Origin: a virus
DNA length: 23,766 nucleotides
Strand: one strand, 5' to 3'
IMG/VR virus record: IMGVR_UViG_3300037585_003661
Span: 1-23,766 of that record
The position numbers were made by a program, and so were the translations under genes. Under the pieces are notes generated by a model. That model ran no database searches, had not been told where the DNA came from, and saw only the letters and a program-made list of their open reading frames with translations. Of this stretch, positions 5,558-21,503 are shown one piece after another (the first letter of the stretch is position 1; every line of letters starts with the position of its first letter).

Positions 5558-5565
5558 CATGGGAT

Positions 5566-9119: not shown

Positions 9120-9215
9120 TTTCAGACTACTATAAGTAACTCTACTGGTTAGGTGACCTTTTTTGTGGTAAGTATATATATTTAGATTATTATACCTATA
9201 TAGATATTGAAAATT

Positions 9216-9731
9216 ATGAATACTGTTGGAGCATTAAAGAAACGTTTAAAAGGAGCAGAGTTCTTGACTCCCAAACAAAGAACATTTGCTGAATTTTTCG
9301 TATCTAGATATCCAGACGTAACAAAAAAAGAGGCGGCTAAAGCTGCTGGGTACGCTGACAAAATTTGCGAGAAGACAGGTAGTTTATTAACTAATCCTGA
9401 TAAATATCCTCATGTAGTAGCTTACATTGAGAAGTTAAGAGATTCAGCGGCAAAGACTTATAAGGATCATTACAGACATCTTAGAAGATTAGACGATTTA
9501 TCAAAAAAGGCAGAGGACAAAGGTCAATTGGCTGCTGCAATTAATGCAGAGTTTAGGTTGGGTCAATCTGTTGGTTTATATGTTGACAAGAAGGAAATAA
9601 AAGTTCAAGACCTGTCAGCTATGTCGAAAGAAGAATTAATTAAACAGATAAATGAGTTACGTGATGAAATACCAAACAGCAAAGTACTCGAGATCGAAGC
9701 CGAAGAAGGCGAAGATTCTTCCGAAGACTGA
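9216..9731 (+). CDS. terS: Terminase small subunit
   Basis: I use the ATG at 9216 rather than the TTG at 9207; the product is 171 aa. The N-terminal region LTPKQRTFAEFFVSRYP followed by VTKKEAAKAAGYAD is the helix-turn-helix pattern of small terminase subunits, which recognise the phage packaging site. A central helical region suits ring oligomerisation, and an acidic C-terminal tail (EIEAEEGEDSSED) may contact the large subunit. The gene starts the late region. It lies about 3.4 kb from the large subunit, not adjacent as usual. A short second frame overlaps its 3' end. Confidence 0.82.
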   Translation: MNTVGALKKRLKGAEFLTPKQRTFAEFFVSRYPDVTKKEAAKAAGYADKICEKTGSLLTNPDKYPHVVAYIEKLRDSAAKTYKDHYRHLRRLDDLSKKAEDKGQLAAAINAEFRLGQSVGLYVDKKEIKVQDLSAMSKEELIKQINELRDEIPNSKVLEIEAEEGEDSSED

Positions 9732-9828: not shown

Positions 9829-10264
9829 AGTTAATTACGAGGATGTTCAAATTAATCTTGTTTCACCTTCTAATGATAACGACGATCATTGTTTTGGGGA
9901 GTATGATTCTGTAAAAAATACTATTCATTTAGACAAGACTCAATCATCAAGATCACTTGCTAATTCACTTTTACATGAAGTACTTCATTCAGTAGTTTAT
10001 CATTCTGGTCTTAATTCAGAGGGTAATTGTCTAGCTGCTGATAAAGATGAAGAGCTTGTTGTAAATAATTTATCTAACACACTTTCACAGATTATTAGGG
10101 ATAATAAATGGTTCTTACCTTACATACAAAAGAATATAAATTCAGGAGATAAAACCAATGAGAAAACAGGAATCAAAACTATACGAAGAGCTAAGAAAAG
10201 CGTTACCAAACGTACACTTTCAAAGAATAGAAACAAACGTAGGCTTAGGAATTCCAGACGTTAA
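9788..10264 (+). CDS. HExxH metalloprotein (putative zinc metallopeptidase)
   Basis: The motif H63-E-V-L-H67 in SLLHEVLHSVVYHSGL, after a strand with NTIHLDKTQ, matches small ImmA/IrrE- or SprT-like zinc peptidase domains found in phages; a downstream EELVVNN may give the third ligand. Such proteins could cut a repressor or host factor, but no partner is seen. The start could be the GTG at 9803, with GGGAG before it, instead of the ATG at 9788, which lacks a ribosome binding site. The Arg/Lys-rich tail after about residue 120 is encoded by DNA shared with the nuclease gene (107-nt overlap) and may not be functional. A palindrome lies at 9800-9815. Confidence 0.72.
   Translation: MWELLVSTLKKKIRVNYEDVQINLVSPSNDNDDHCFGEYDSVKNTIHLDKTQSSRSLANSLLHEVLHSVVYHSGLNSEGNCLAADKDEELVVNNLSNTLSQIIRDNKWFLPYIQKNINSGDKTNEKTGIKTIRRAKKSVTKRTLSKNRNKRRLRNSRR
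9800..9815. repeat. Palindrome TTAGTGT-CA-ACACTAA
   Basis: Seven-base arms around a CA centre, inside the first codons of the metalloprotein gene. Its 12-base core is identical to the palindrome in the divergent promoters at 5541-5552. It may be a second binding site for the same factor. Confidence 0.55.
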
Positions 10265-10574
10265 TGGGTGTTGTAAAGGCATAGAGTTTTGGTTAGAGCT
10301 AAAGGTAAGTTCTGGTACAGCCATTCGGTTATCTAAATATCAAAAATCGTGGATTATCAGGCGTGGTAGAGAGGGAGGTAGAGTATTTATCTTGCGAAAG
10401 GCCCTCTCGGAGAGAGCTTTGAAACTGTACCAGTGGACATCGGCCATGATCCATGAGCCATCAACCCCCGTCCCATTTGCCACTTTCCCATATCCCATTG
10501 ACTACGGCCAACTTCTAGATACCATCCTGAAGAGTCAGTTACCTGCAGCTGGGACCGTGCAGCAGGATCCGTGA
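10158..10574 (+). CDS. VRR-NUC/PD-(D/E)xK-type nuclease
   Basis: An AGGAG precedes the ATG by eight bases. The N-terminal 80 residues show the nuclease core: GIPDV at 31-35 (D34), the ExK strand FWLELKV with E47/K49, and LSKYQKSWI with Q62. This matches VRR-NUC and Holliday-resolvase-like PD-(D/E)xK phage nucleases acting on DNA structures. The domain seems complete by residue 82. The remaining tail (about 55 aa, Pro-rich, ending LPAAGTVQQDP) is encoded by the GC-richer repeat DNA that continues beyond the stop, so it looks like an added extension. It overlaps the metalloprotein gene by 107 nt. Confidence 0.78.
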   Translation: MRKQESKLYEELRKALPNVHFQRIETNVGLGIPDVNGCCKGIEFWLELKVSSGTAIRLSKYQKSWIIRRGREGGRVFILRKALSERALKLYQWTSAMIHEPSTPVPFATFPYPIDYGQLLDTILKSQLPAAGTVQQDP

Positions 10575-10604
10575 TTTCCCATCTCCCAACTCCCACTTCC
10601 CATT
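10541..10604 (+). repeat. Composite repeat copy 1 (B then A)
   Basis: Part B is GCAGCTGGGACCGTGCAGC, inside the end of the nuclease gene. Part A is a pyrimidine-rich run of TCCCA/TTCCCAT units (10575-10604) starting at the stop codon. Spacing B to A is about 15 bases. Confidence 0.6.
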
Positions 10605-10643
10605 GCAAATTCAACATTCTTTGACCATCGACCCCGAGCCTTC

Positions 10644-10690
10644 CAGGAGCTGGTACCGCTGAACCTGTGGTGAACTCCCATTTCCCATTG
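10644..10690 (+). repeat. Composite repeat copy 2 (B then A)
   Basis: Part B is CAGGAGCTGGTACCGCTG (from 10644) and part A is CTCCCATTTCCCATTG (10675-10690). It lies in non-coding DNA upstream of the RNA candidate. Confidence 0.6.
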
Positions 10691-10780
10691 GTAATCCACG
10701 CTTTTGTTTAGAAAAGCAGGACTGCAGCATCAGGATGCGGACCCGCAGCTGGATCCAAGTGAAGCTGGTAAAATAAATAC

Positions 10781-10808
10781 TTGACATCGGCGTGGGATAA
10801 TATATATA
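10781..10808 (+). promoter_or_regulatory. Sigma70-type promoter for the RNA candidate
   Basis: A perfect TTGACA (10781-10786), 16-base spacer and TATATA (10803-10808). The predicted start near 10815 coincides with the first base-paired position of the structured RNA, and no gene follows it for 420 bases. Confidence 0.7.
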
Positions 10809-11023
10809 TGCACATGGTAGCTCAATCATCTCAAACTTGTTAGCTCCTGTTTGTCCGTTGGGCTACCGTTATCTTGGGGCACTCGAGAAAAAGCTTCCCA
10901 CTAAAGAATGAGGCTAGTCGTTTAGTGTTTATGGCGAAACCTATGATGCCCCCTGATCCCTGATCCATTGAGCCAGACGTGGCGTTAGCATAATCAATGG
11001 ATCAGGGATTGGCTGTCGATCTC

Positions 11024-11114
11024 ATTTCCCATTTCCCACTTCCCACTGCAGAACCAAGAACCGTGGTTTGTGAACTAAGAATGAAGGTTACTGGCGGTAC
11101 CGCTGGTCCGCAGG
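11024..11114 (+). repeat. Repeat parts A and B, reversed order
   Basis: Part A is ATTTCCCATTTCCCACTTCC (from 11024) and part B is CTGGCGGTACCGCTGGTCCG (from 11091). Both lie within the RNA candidate, with A upstream of B, unlike the other copies. Confidence 0.55.
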
Positions 11115-11140
11115 TCAGGGTGCTGTAGATTACCTTACGC

Positions 11141-11170
11141 TTACACGTACGCATGTGTGAAAATTTTTTT
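11141..11170 (+). terminator. Intrinsic terminator
   Basis: TTACACGT (11141-11148) pairs with ATGTGTGA (11153-11160) through an ACGC loop: 8 bp with two G-U pairs, then AAA and seven T residues. It closes the RNA candidate just before the next promoter. Confidence 0.6.
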
Positions 11171-11180
11171 GTTTTACCTC

Positions 11181-11209
11181 TTGACTTCTGTGGCTAAACA
11201 TCTTATGTA
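11181..11209 (+). promoter_or_regulatory. Sigma70-type promoter for the small-gene cassette
   Basis: TTGACT (11181-11186), a 17-base spacer and TATGTA (11204-11209). The predicted start near 11216 gives a 20-base leader containing AAAGGAG before the ATG at 11236. Confidence 0.6.
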
Positions 11210-11235
11210 CATGGGACAACCAAAGGAGAACAACG

Positions 11236-11547
11236 ATGACAAAAGAAAAACAAGAAGACAAAAGTAACTTACTATTTACCTGTCCAAAGCATGGCAAAGA
11301 AGCCTACTTCAGTATTAAGAAGTTTGAAAAGCACCCGAAGTGGGGAAAGGATATTGTATATGTTTGGTTTAAAGATGCAAAGCGAGGCGACGAAAAAATG
11401 TGGTGCAGAATCCTCAAGGGAGATAGAAAGAAAGGAATTGGGATTCTAGACAATCAACCATTCAATCAAATTCAATACAAGGTTGGTGATAAATTTAAAT
11501 ACCACACAGATGCCGATGGTATCACATGGAAGGTAGGAAAAGCATGA
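11236..11547 (+). CDS. Hypothetical phage protein (103 aa)
   Basis: An excellent AAAGGAG lies nine bases before the ATG, downstream of a good promoter. The product is basic (MTKEKQEDKSNLLFTCPKHG...) with a CPKHG piece, a strand-rich middle (KDIVYVWFKDAKRG) and a C-terminal KYHTDADGITWKVG. Together these suggest a small beta-rich, perhaps nucleic-acid-binding, fold. Two cysteines (in CPKHG and MWCRIL) are not enough to claim a zinc site. The stop overlaps the start of the next gene. Base composition resembles the phage background, unlike the next gene. Confidence 0.75.
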   Translation: MTKEKQEDKSNLLFTCPKHGKEAYFSIKKFEKHPKWGKDIVYVWFKDAKRGDEKMWCRILKGDRKKGIGILDNQPFNQIQYKVGDKFKYHTDADGITWKVGKA

Positions 11548-11885
11548 GTATTGAAAAATTTTTGCTTGAAGGAGAAAAGTCAGAGTCCTTCACTATTGAA
11601 GATGTCGTGAAACATGGTTGCAGCGGCGGGGTTATCCCGTCGCTGATTTACTATTATGATACAGTGAAGTTTCATGATGAACATGAAACCTGGATCTGGC
11701 AGCAGCTGGATCAACATGCCAACGTCGATGGCCTGTCAACCCTGCAATACATTTCCCGTTTGAACGGCGGAAAGGATGTGGGGTCATTGCGTCAATTGAA
11801 GAACCTGCTGAGCTGGTGGGCTGCAGAGGTTGCTGCACAGTACATCCTGAACGAAAGAGAGGAGCAAGATGCGTGCACTGGTTAG
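11544..11885 (+). CDS. DUF7222-like small phage protein
   Basis: I use the ATG at 11544, which overlaps the upstream stop as ATGA and follows AAGGTAGG; an in-frame ATG at 11526 is possible. The 113-aa product has the layout VVKHGCSGGVIPSLIYYYDT, then a helix with WIWQQLDQ, then NGGKDVGSLRQLKNLLSWWA and a closing AAEVAAQYIL. This matches, from memory, small phage proteins grouped as DUF7222; function unknown. The gene is visibly richer in GC than those around it, with codons such as CTG and GGC favoured, so it may have been acquired from a phage of a different host. Confidence 0.68.
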   Translation: MSIEKFLLEGEKSESFTIEDVVKHGCSGGVIPSLIYYYDTVKFHDEHETWIWQQLDQHANVDGLSTLQYISRLNGGKDVGSLRQLKNLLSWWAAEVAAQYILNEREEQDACTG

Positions 11886-11968
11886 GTATATTATTTGGTT
11901 TGTTTCTGATGCGATCGGAATGGGGGCGCGTGTTCGTGGGCCTGGCTTTGGTAGCGATGTTCATTTAG
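11873..11968 (+). CDS. Tiny membrane protein (31 aa, GTG start)
   Basis: GTG 11873 lies eight bases after AGAGGAG, a better spacing than the ATG at 11869 of the competing frame. The product is a single-pass membrane peptide: HWLGILFGLFLM, a charged RSEWGR turn, then VFVGLALVAMFI. It overlaps the end of the DUF7222-like gene. The frame is short, so the call rests on the ribosome binding site and the hydrophobic pattern. Confidence 0.45.
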   Translation: MHWLGILFGLFLMRSEWGRVFVGLALVAMFI

Positions 11969-11983
11969 TTCCCACATCCCGTG
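11967..11983 (+). repeat. Isolated repeat part A
   Basis: AGTTCCCACATCCCGTG shares TTCCCACATCCCG with the part A at 12062-12078. No part B lies upstream of it. Confidence 0.5.
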
Positions 11984-12022
11984 CCAAGCCTCAAGACTTT
12001 GAGTTTACAGATGAAGAGCTGA

Positions 12023-12078
12023 CTGGCAGCAGGTACCGCTGGACCAGAGCTGACGCTGGGGTTTCCCACATCCCGCTG
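12023..12078 (+). repeat. Composite repeat copy 3 (B then A)
   Basis: Part B is GGCAGCAGGTACCGCTGGAC (within 12023-12047) and part A is TTTCCCACATCCCGCTG (12062-12078). It lies between two tiny genes, just before the ribosome binding site of the second. Confidence 0.6.
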
Positions 12079-12096
12079 AAAGAAAGGAGTTTTGCT

Positions 12097-12282
12097 ATGT
12101 ATGAAGAAGCTAATGCATCAGGAGCTGGGACCGCTGTACCGAATGTAATCCCGTTTCCCATTTCCCACCGAAAAGCTGAGGTTGATGATGTGAAAGATAG
12201 ACATCAGAAGCACGGCGGTACCGCGAAAATTCAGGTCTTGTTCTATTGGTCGTTGGTTGGTTGGCTATTATTCAATCTGTGA
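12097..12282 (+). CDS. Small C-terminally anchored membrane protein (61 aa)
   Basis: An AAAGGAG lies eight bases before the ATG at 12097, a better start than the frame's upstream ATG at 11869. The product has a soluble front and a C-terminal hydrophobic segment, VLFYWSLVGWLLFNL, that would anchor it in the membrane. The front includes repeat-encoded residues: GAGTAVPN from part B and IPFPISH from part A. A further B-like element gives HGGTA. So the repeats lie within the gene in frame. Function unknown; a host-membrane effector is possible. Confidence 0.5.
   Translation: MYEEANASGAGTAVPNVIPFPISHRKAEVDDVKDRHQKHGGTAKIQVLFYWSLVGWLLFNL
12119..12170 (+). repeat. Composite repeat copy 4 (B then A), inside a gene
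   Basis: Part B is CAGGAGCTGGGACCGCTG (from 12119) and part A is CCCGTTTCCCATTTCCCACC (from 12150). A partial B (CACGGCGGTACCGCG) follows at 12211-12225. Reading frame of B is the same here and in the nuclease gene (codons for Ala-Gly-Thr). Confidence 0.6.
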
Positions 12283-13177: not shown

Positions 13178-14710
13178 TTGACAAACAACATACGTGCAAA
13201 GTTAGACAAATATGATATAACCAAAATACTTATGGATTTAGATTTACTGCCAAAAGAGAAGTTAATTAAGGTAAAACAACTTCTAGATGCAAAAAAGATA
13301 CTGAAAGCGAGAACAGAATTCCTTTTCTTTGTAAAACAAGTATGGCCAGATTTCATTTGCAGAGAAGCAAATGAACCTTCTAAGTGGGGCCACCATCAAA
13401 TAATTGCTGAGAAATTGACTCAAGTAGCTGAAGGCAAGATCAAGAGGCTCATTATCAACATGCCACCTAGACATACTAAATCTGAATTTGCATCATATTT
13501 GTTTCCTTCTTGGATAATGGGACTCCGACCCAAAGCCAAAATCATGCAGGTTTCTCACAATGCTGAACTCTCACAAAGGTTTGGTAGAAAAGTAAGAAAC
13601 TTAGTTGACAGTACCGAATATAAAAAAATTTTTAATAATATGGGACTCCAACAGGATAGCAAAGCTGCAGGTCGTTGGGAAACTTCTGATGGAGGTGAAT
13701 ATTTTGCAGCGGGTGTCGGTGGTGCCATAACGGGTAGGGGTGCTGATGTATTAATTATTGATGACCCTCACACCGAACAAAATGTCATGTCTGATTCTGC
13801 AATGGAGAAGACCTATGATTGGTATGTATCGGGTCCACGTCAACGTTTACAACCTGGTGGGTCGATCGTGGTCGTAATGACTAGATGGGCTACAGATGAT
13901 TTGACAGGAAGACTTCTCAAAGCGCAAGCGAACACAGGCGCGGACAAATGGGAGGTGGTCGAGTTTCCAGCACTCCTGGACGACGGAGAACCTGTATGGC
14001 CAGAGTATTGGAAGAAAGAAGAATTAGAATCTGTAAAAGCATCTATACCTCCTCAACGTTGGAACGCACAGTATATGCAAAACCCAACTTCAGAAGAAGG
14101 AGCCATCATCAAACGTGAATACTGGCGACCATGGTCGGGGGGCATGCCAGAGTTAGAATTTGTTATTCAATCACTTGACACTGCTTTTTCAAAAAAAGAT
14201 TCTGCTGACTATAGTGCAATAACTACTTGGGGTGTGTTTAGACCATCAGAGGATTCTCCACCATGTTTAATGTTACTTGATGCAATGAAAGGTCGTTGGG
14301 ACTTTCCAGAACTAAAAGCAGTTGCAACTGAAGAATATACATATTGGAAACCTGAAGCTTGTATTATTGAGGCGAAGGCCAGTGGACTACCGCTCATTCA
14401 AGAATTACGTAGAACTGGAATACCTGTTCAAGAATTTGTTCCTGGTCGAGGAAAAGATAAAGTTTCACGTGTAAATGCAGTGTCTCCTGTCTTTTCGTCA
14501 GGTATGGTTTTTTATCCTGAAGGTAAACAATTTGCTCATGAAGTCATTGAAGAATGCGCAGCATTTCCTCATGGAGATAATGATGACCTCGTGGACAGTA
14601 CCACACAAGCTGTGTTAAGATACAGAGAAGGTAATTTTATATCGGCTGATTTTGACTATGAACCTACAGATCATGTAAGGTTGCCTCAAGAATATAAATA
14701 TTATACGTAG
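13178..14710 (+). CDS. terL: Terminase large subunit
   Basis: The DNA packaging motor and nuclease (510 aa). The ATPase domain has a Walker A-like MPPRHTKSE at 95-103 and Walker B LIIDDPH with D195/D196. The RNase H-like nuclease domain has D334 (in SLDTAF), E398 (in IEAKASG) and the acidic DDLVD at 469-473. This order is standard for phage large terminases that cut and pump DNA into the prohead through the portal. The frame has no ATG near its start; the TTG at 13178 (MTNNIRAKL) is the best choice, with no clear ribosome binding site. A later ATG at 13229 would remove only 17 residues. It begins the structural operon. Confidence 0.96.
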   Translation: MTNNIRAKLDKYDITKILMDLDLLPKEKLIKVKQLLDAKKILKARTEFLFFVKQVWPDFICREANEPSKWGHHQIIAEKLTQVAEGKIKRLIINMPPRHTKSEFASYLFPSWIMGLRPKAKIMQVSHNAELSQRFGRKVRNLVDSTEYKKIFNNMGLQQDSKAAGRWETSDGGEYFAAGVGGAITGRGADVLIIDDPHTEQNVMSDSAMEKTYDWYVSGPRQRLQPGGSIVVVMTRWATDDLTGRLLKAQANTGADKWEVVEFPALLDDGEPVWPEYWKKEELESVKASIPPQRWNAQYMQNPTSEEGAIIKREYWRPWSGGMPELEFVIQSLDTAFSKKDSADYSAITTWGVFRPSEDSPPCLMLLDAMKGRWDFPELKAVATEEYTYWKPEACIIEAKASGLPLIQELRRTGIPVQEFVPGRGKDKVSRVNAVSPVFSSGMVFYPEGKQFAHEVIEECAAFPHGDNDDLVDSTTQAVLRYREGNFISADFDYEPTDHVRLPQEYKYYT

Positions 14711-20864: not shown

Positions 20865-21082
20865 TGGACTTTGAAACAATAAAATACATCAAGACTAAAC
20901 TGCTTGAACCCAAGAAAGAAAGGCTTAAAGATAAAGTTATAATTGGTGTTGACAATTGGGACGAATATAAATATATAATAGGACAGATCAGATCCATAGA
21001 GGATCTGCAACAAGACCTAACGGACTTGTTCAAAAAACAGGAGCTACATGACGATAATAACGCCGAAGGCGCAGGAGACTAA
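20864..21082 (+). CDS. Small helical hypothetical protein (72 aa, GTG start)
   Basis: The GTG start overlaps the holin-like gene's TAG stop. The product (from the start: FETIKYIKTKLLEPKKERLK) is charged, helical and likely soluble. The central VDNWDEYKYIIGQIRSIEDL followed by QQDLTDLFKK looks like two amphipathic helices. The acidic end reads HDDNNAEGAGD. I suspect similar helical proteins follow the holin-like gene in other marine phages; that is from memory. The last 35 nt overlap the cochaperonin gene, whose ribosome binding site GGAG lies inside it. Function unknown. Confidence 0.7.
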   Translation: MDFETIKYIKTKLLEPKKERLKDKVIIGVDNWDEYKYIIGQIRSIEDLQQDLTDLFKKQELHDDNNAEGAGD

Positions 21083-21503
21083 AAATGGAAGTCTTCTCAA
21101 TGCTTACAAAACTAAGGAAGAAGTAGAAAAACTTTACTTACATTCCGATTCCATTGACAAAAAAGCCGTAGAAAAATTACCCCAACCAACTGGATGGAGA
21201 ATGTTAGTTCTTCCATACTCAGGCCCTAAAAAATCTAAGGGTGGTTTAGTATTTTCAGATGAGACTCATGAGAGAATTCAAATGACAACTGTTTGTGCAT
21301 TGGTTCTTAAATTAGGATCTCTTTGTTATTCAGATAAAGAAAAATTTGGAGATAAACCTTGGTGTAAAGAAGGTGATTGGATTATCTTCGGTAGATATGC
21401 AGGGAGCCGTTTCAAAATTGATGGTGGTGAAGTGCGTATTTTAAACGATGACGAAGTTATCGCTAAAATCAGTAATCCAGAGGATATACTGCACACTTAT
21501 TAA
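21048..21503 (+). CDS. GroES-like cochaperonin (Cpn10 family)
   Basis: The 151-aa product has the Cpn10 fold signature: LPQPTGWRMLVLPYSGP (about 44-60), a mobile-loop region KKSKGGLVFSDETHERIQ, then GDWIIFGRYAGSRFKIDG and a final EVRILNDDEVIAKI. The segment around KEGDWIIFGRYAG matches the end-half of GroES (the usual form is xGDxVxFxKYAG). Phage cochaperonins (T4 gp31 type) replace host GroES to let GroEL fold the large capsid protein. Its location directly before scaffold and capsid genes supports that job. The N-terminal 40 residues form a charged extension absent from GroES. The start has GGAG six bases upstream. Confidence 0.85.
   Translation: MTIITPKAQETKNGSLLNAYKTKEEVEKLYLHSDSIDKKAVEKLPQPTGWRMLVLPYSGPKKSKGGLVFSDETHERIQMTTVCALVLKLGSLCYSDKEKFGDKPWCKEGDWIIFGRYAGSRFKIDGGEVRILNDDEVIAKISNPEDILHTY

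Follow-up and report, generated by a model that had tools for sequence, protein, structure and literature searches.

A Conserved Folded RNA between the Terminase Genes of a Pelagiphage-like Virus and Its Predicted Antisense Pairing with the Phage groES Translation Start

The DNA analyzed here, referred to as the window, is the 23,766-base IMG/VR virus record IMGVR_UViG_3300037585_003661. The terminase large subunit and the DNA polymerase that it encodes are nearest to those of HTVC023P-type pelagiphages; the large subunit is 64% identical to that of HTVC023P and 61% identical to that of HTVC027P, and the polymerase is 60% identical to that of HTVC023P. Judged by these sequences, the source is a marine phage akin to the viruses of SAR11 bacteria, pelagiphage-like and of the HTVC023P type. 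The interval under study lies, as was stated in a preliminary description of this DNA, between the two terminase genes, TerS (9207–9731) and TerL (13178–14710). The surrounding region, 10459–12240, is a GC-rich patch with about seven repeat units in one orientation, each composed of a 7-nt TTCCCAY array and then a GGTACCG or GGGACCG motif, and it extends into the ends of the open reading frames at 10158–10574 and 11869–12282. In L020 (4070–6048) and L021 (94–2072), the match to the terminase large subunit covers about 1980 bases and not 1530, which suggests that an intein, an intron, or some other in-frame insertion is present.

The interval opens with a sigma-70-type promoter on the plus strand (10781–10808), consisting of TTGACA at 10781–10786, a 16-nt spacer, and TATATA at 10803–10808; both elements, noted earlier, are present in the sequence. 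The TATATA box stands 7 nt upstream of GGTAGC at 10816, and transcription of the RNA is expected to start at about 10815–10816, at the base of the first hairpin. The spacer contains CGTGGGATA (10791–10799), a motif that we infer to be operator-like; relatives have at this site either CGTGGGATA or its reverse complement, TATCCCAYG. The hairpin, designated stem 1 (10816–10867, plus strand), is the conserved 5′ part of the RNA and scores 70.7 bits with the covariance model. The 13-pair stem recognized previously (10814–10826 with 10857–10869) is present, some of its pairs being G-U, and stem 1 alone folds with a free energy of −20.9 kcal/mol (z −5.1, none of 200 shuffled sequences being as good).

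An exact 29-nt piece of stem 1 is present in 21 viral contigs and a looser pattern in 51; once duplicates are removed there are ∼43 distinct marine viral loci, to which the covariance model and a third pattern add further, divergent clades. At these loci a promoter lies directly 5′ of the hairpin, and both the TTGAC[AT] box and its spacing to stem 1 are kept nearly constant. The outer helix is nearly invariant, and the rare changes within it maintain pairing (U-A to U-G, G-U to A-U, and C-G to U-G); in the L040 and L048 clades one C-G pair has become U-A. The loop reads AGCUCCU in all clades. The invariant columns AGCUCCUGUUU and CCGUUGGG exceed what pairing within the hairpin requires and coincide with the complementarity to a gene start that is discussed below. 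More than 40 loci, compensatory changes, and a constant distance from promoter to hairpin lend good support to the proposal of a structured non-coding RNA transcribed from a promoter of its own, and on this comparative evidence the interval in all likelihood encodes a genuine conserved folded phage RNA. Host copies of stem 1 were sought by two pattern scans of 11.3 M bacterial and archaeal genome contigs, which returned none or only chance matches, and were dismissed. An interpretation of stem 1 as an integron attC site (RYYYAAC...GTTRRRY) was rejected, as the two boxes are not both conserved: GTTGGGC is constant in the main clades and absent from divergent members, and the other box varies (CAAT, CGAC, or CAAC). 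A single reverse-complement tRNA match, in L134, was taken as chance.

The complete RNA region, 10814–11172, folds with −118.3 kcal/mol (z −4.1), a value reached by none of 100 dinucleotide shuffles. The known RNAs that had not been recognized by eye, tmRNA, RNase P RNA, 6S RNA, and tRNA, are indeed not represented, there being no covariance-model match at gathering score and no ARAGORN match; no other Rfam family reached its gathering score either, and a relaxed threshold gave chance-level matches only. Downstream of stem 1 is module A (10876–10952, plus strand; fold z of −2.25 for 10874–10953), in which a closing helix GGGGCA/TGCCCC encloses CACTAAA/TTTAGTG. This nested arrangement, noted previously, is present and shows compensatory changes in relatives: among 14 distinct sequences, both helices have double changes (C-G to U-A, A-U to G-U or G-C, and G-C to A-U). 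Module A is kept in one clade of relatives. When targets of module A were sought in two related contigs, the best exact complements were 10–11 nt long and identified no consistent site; for the other modules no target was found either. The perfect 16-bp stem reported at 10956–10971 with 10994–11009 is present and is part of a 70-nt hairpin module (10953–11022, plus strand; fold z −4.9), but this module is an insertion that is nearly private to the window, being seen only there and in the identical contig L086. BLAST alignments of the relatives that span this place pass straight from 10952 to 11023 without it, and different insertions are found in other relatives elsewhere in the interval. The modules are followed by an array of the 7-nt repeat TTCCCAT/TTCCCAC (11023–11046, plus strand), a layout that is the same in relatives, and the folding of 11023–11172 is unexceptional (z −0.25).

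A hairpin followed by seven T residues at 11141–11170 had been described as a terminator, an assignment that the analysis does not support: the folding of 11135–11172 is close to that of shuffled sequence (z −0.77), AAAA is interposed between the stem and the T run in place of a U run directly after a stable hairpin, and the hairpin was not called by a terminator scan. The A4T7 tract (11160–11170) stands ∼10 nt 5′ of the next −35 box, which makes a terminator doubtful; the distance is ∼10 nt in most relatives and 2–3 nt in one clade, and the tract looks more like the UP element of the next promoter than a terminator tail. This next promoter (11181–11216, plus strand) comprises TTGACT at 11181–11186, a 17-nt spacer, TATGTA at 11204–11209, and a CATGGGA motif, and it belongs to the gene at 11236. 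The earlier statement that no gene follows holds only in part: this gene does come next, with a promoter of its own. On the plus strand of the window CATGGGA occurs only at 5558, 11210, and 12330, each time near promoter-like sequence. Sites near TTGAC number two of three in the window, two of two in the HTVC023P locus, none of one in HTVC027P, and one of four in a 59-kb relative; because of the poor association in the latter two, the motif was rejected as a general promoter element and is a clade-level observation only. Sites like CATGGGA also stand 5′ of accessory genes in HTVC023P. Past the next promoter, L113, L116, and L119 have long, structured-looking 5′ leaders that begin with GACAGCCARATGAAT, precede the next gene, and are unlike the stem-1 RNA.

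When the fetched loci were searched with the loop sequence, an antisense match was found at one gene start in many phages. The gene concerned, which in the window occupies 21048–21503 on the plus strand within the structural-gene region, encodes a Cpn10/GroES-like co-chaperonin of 151 amino acids (PF00166, E 2e-8, above the Pfam cut-off). Two adjacent, near-invariant stretches of stem 1 are complementary to the region preceding its start codon: block 1, UAGCUCCUGUUU (10841–10852, plus strand), would form 12 bp with AAACAGGAGCUA (21035–21046) over the Shine-Dalgarno sequence, and block 2, GUCCGUUGGG (10853–10862, plus strand), would form 10 bp, one of them G-U, with CCUAACGGAC (21016–21025). 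The proposed target site, CCTAACGGAC-TTGTTCAAA-AAACAGGAGCTA (21016–21046, plus strand), accordingly takes in the groES Shine-Dalgarno sequence and extends over the 3′ portion of the gene upstream. The duplex between stem 1 and this site is predicted to have a free energy of −37.9 kcal/mol, as compared with −20.9 kcal/mol for the self-fold of stem 1. Both stem 1 and the groES target site are absent from HTVC023P.

Among starts led by a Shine-Dalgarno sequence, the groES start ranks first by contiguous match to the phage's own stem 1 in all nine RNA-target pairs, taken from contigs that have both parts, with 12–18 bp as against 8–10 for the next-best start, and first by duplex energy in eight of the nine; since the contigs are related, these comparisons are not independent. 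Of 43 such starts in a 59-kb relative, that of groES has the best energy. When stem 1 was shuffled 2000 times, 12 of the shuffles for the window reached the observed match length at some start, and for each of seven other contigs 0–3 of 2000 did so. Block 2 is found in RNA and target alike in four target clades and is lacking from both in two, and its loss may have been a single event. The RNA of a divergent clade has 17–18 contiguous bp with its own target and 12–16 with others. Covariation in block 1 is limited, foreign RNA-target pairs often being as long as own pairs. The core of the target coincides with codons of the upstream gene that are themselves conserved (KKQEL), and 10 of its 12 nt are kept in L051, where no stem 1 was detected; conservation of the target is therefore partly explained without the RNA. 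A comparison of synonymous sites at the target showed the region to be highly conserved overall. By energy alone the groES site is not unique in the window, as a site internal to TerL has a lower value (−44.7 versus −39.7 kcal/mol), and a target search on energy only was set aside; shuffles of the whole 359-nt RNA also commonly find a 12-nt match somewhere on the window's plus strand. A 59-kb relative (L416) has, at contig position 40953 on the minus strand and away from the groES start, another 13-nt complement to its own stem 1, CTAAACAGGAGCT, possibly a second target or a chance match.

The interpretation that we consider the most probable, with reasonable but limited confidence, is that the interval encodes a trans-encoded antisense RNA that blocks translation of the phage's own groES. 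Transcription would begin at the base of stem 1, and the hairpin loop would present UUAGCUCCU for contact with the Shine-Dalgarno sequence of the groES mRNA. The hairpin would then open to form a two-block duplex (12 + 10 bp) over AACGGAC...AAACAGGAGCUA, which, lying directly 5′ of the start codon, would hinder ribosome binding. It might also lay the polycistronic mRNA open to RNase, and in consequence translation of groES would be delayed or tuned, with repression as the simplest outcome. From promoter-like sequence, a conserved hairpin, complementarity in several clades, and the joint presence or absence of block 2, we infer transcription of the RNA, formation of the duplex in the cell, and repression. 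The RNA is encoded ∼10 kb away from its putative target (10816 as against 21016–21046), and its complementarity to the translation start is conserved. Of the roles suggested beforehand, that of a phage regulatory RNA is supported and can now be specified, at the level of sequence, as antisense to the groES start; no support was found for a decoy. The modules 3′ of stem 1 are exchangeable structured domains that may serve stability, processing, or other targets. The proposal makes a specific prediction amenable to mutation, a 22-bp interaction controlling the phage's own GroES-like chaperonin, and we found no regulatory RNA of pelagiphages described in the open-access literature.

A cis-acting role was also considered, in which transcription from 10781 makes the interval a 5′ leader that controls the gene at 11236 by attenuation or by sequestration of the ribosome-binding site. 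The loop CUCCU could pair with AGGAG of that gene, and a strong terminator is missing between it and the RNA; however, the gene has its own promoter with CATGGGA, its start is far from being the best match to stem 1, and relatives differ by hundreds of bases in how far the gene lies from stem 1 and in what lies between them. Moreover, at least five different genes come after the RNA in relatives while stem 1 stays, and this variation between phages argues against a leader, which we regard as unlikely. Little weight is given likewise to a general anti-Shine-Dalgarno RNA, whose CUCCU loop would bind many mRNAs or ribosomes of phage and host. The constancy of the loop in every clade and the predominance of AGGAG over CTCCT on the plus strand of the window (53 versus 9) speak for such an RNA, but the conserved complementarity extends well past the Shine-Dalgarno core, block 2 fits the groES site, and other starts offer only 8–10 contiguous nt.

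If the modules rather than stem 1 carried the function, for example in protein binding or assembly, the RNA would be a multi-domain scaffold or structural RNA comparable to GOLLD and ROOL. In favor of this, the modules have structure, are conserved, and are exchanged between phages, and related ones adjoin Flavobacterium-1 RNA in long non-coding stretches of other phages; nevertheless, the minimal relatives L033, L034, L104, and L109 keep stem 1 and the repeat array without these modules, and this reading appears improbable. Even less credence attaches to a DNA-level element (a recombination hotspot, packaging site, or origin) of which folding is a by-product: repeat arrays and insertions do cluster between TerS and TerL, but G-U pairs and one-sided changes preserve pairing, the spacing from promoter to stem is constant, and the orientation is on a single strand throughout.

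As an antisense regulator of groES, the RNA would resemble P22 sar, λ OOP, and P1/P7 c4 in being a phage-encoded RNA that pairs with an mRNA of the same phage. The targets of sar, OOP, and c4 are lysogeny or immunity genes of temperate phages, whereas the putative target here is a co-chaperonin gene, the RNA is encoded ∼10 kb from it, and the stem-1 RNA bears exchangeable extra modules. The sar RNA pairs with ant mRNA and inhibits synthesis of the antirepressor (reviewed in PMC12197685), and HTVC027P, an isolate of the phage type concerned here, has been described as lytic (PMC12753301). The phage antisense RNA PAK_P4as15, which may repress translation of its own phage's endolysin (PMC12197685), is similar in its proposed repression of a phage's own gene but differs in target, phage, and architecture. 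Flavobacterium-1 RNA (RF02976) has no match in the window at the threshold of 58.9 bits; its matches are in other marine phages, where it shares a non-coding stretch with hairpin modules like the 70-nt insert. GOLLD and ROOL, large structured RNAs associated with phages, may be analogous to the long modular RNAs found in relatives, but the RNA of the window is short, has no Rfam match, and is proposed to act through base pairing by stem 1. The structures of GOLLD and ROOL are described in PMC12286853.

The stem-closed elements that separate stem 1 from the 7-nt TTCCCAT array differ among relatives. One type of module is closed by GATCYCTGATC...GATCTGRGATC; two scans of viral contigs each yielded at least 120 stretches of it, and it occurs in hundreds of marine viral contigs (L181–L405) and in the isolate HTVC027P. 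In 223 distinct listed copies, inner stem positions 1–4 pair in 96–100% of cases, as compared with 46–81% for permuted partners; the listed copies sit in non-coding DNA, and apical parts that resemble one another are found on unlike stems and in varied contexts. Of 194 listed copies, 92 have a promoter within 500 nt upstream, as against 42 of 390 control positions; 7-nt repeats of the CAAGC type follow within 700 nt in 148 of 223 copies, as against 38 of 390. The left arm of the insert in the window is identical to that of this family, and its right arm is perfectly complementary but different from that of the family, so that the insert is likely, on sequence grounds, though not proven, to be a derived member. 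A broader and tentative idea is that the RNA of the window could belong to a mosaic class of phage RNAs not described before, having their own promoters, a variable series of recombined stem-closed modules, and 7-nt repeat ends, with some modules, stem 1 among them, acting as antisense guides against particular genes; if this is true, marine phages draw on a common stock of parts to build regulatory RNAs with several targets. The module architecture merits study in its own right, and the family offers a concrete way into Flavobacterium-1 RNA and into the long stretches of marine phage DNA that are non-coding.

Among the matches listed, Flavobacterium-1 RNA adjoins such a module in four loci, including HTVC027P. 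When the modular RNA of HTVC027P was compared with its own genome, the longest matches were its own 7-nt repeats. In this isolate (MN698241.1, ∼17.7–18.2 kb, minus strand; L133, 3260–3680), a promoter is followed by ∼450 nt of non-coding, unannotated DNA upstream of gp34, which holds a hairpin module of the GATCYCTGATC type and a 90-bit match to Flavobacterium-1 RNA. Downstream of this stretch and on the same strand lie gp33 and gp34, which constitute a temporal expression cluster of their own, and directional RNA-seq data for HTVC027P are public under PRJNA1253180 (PMC12753301).
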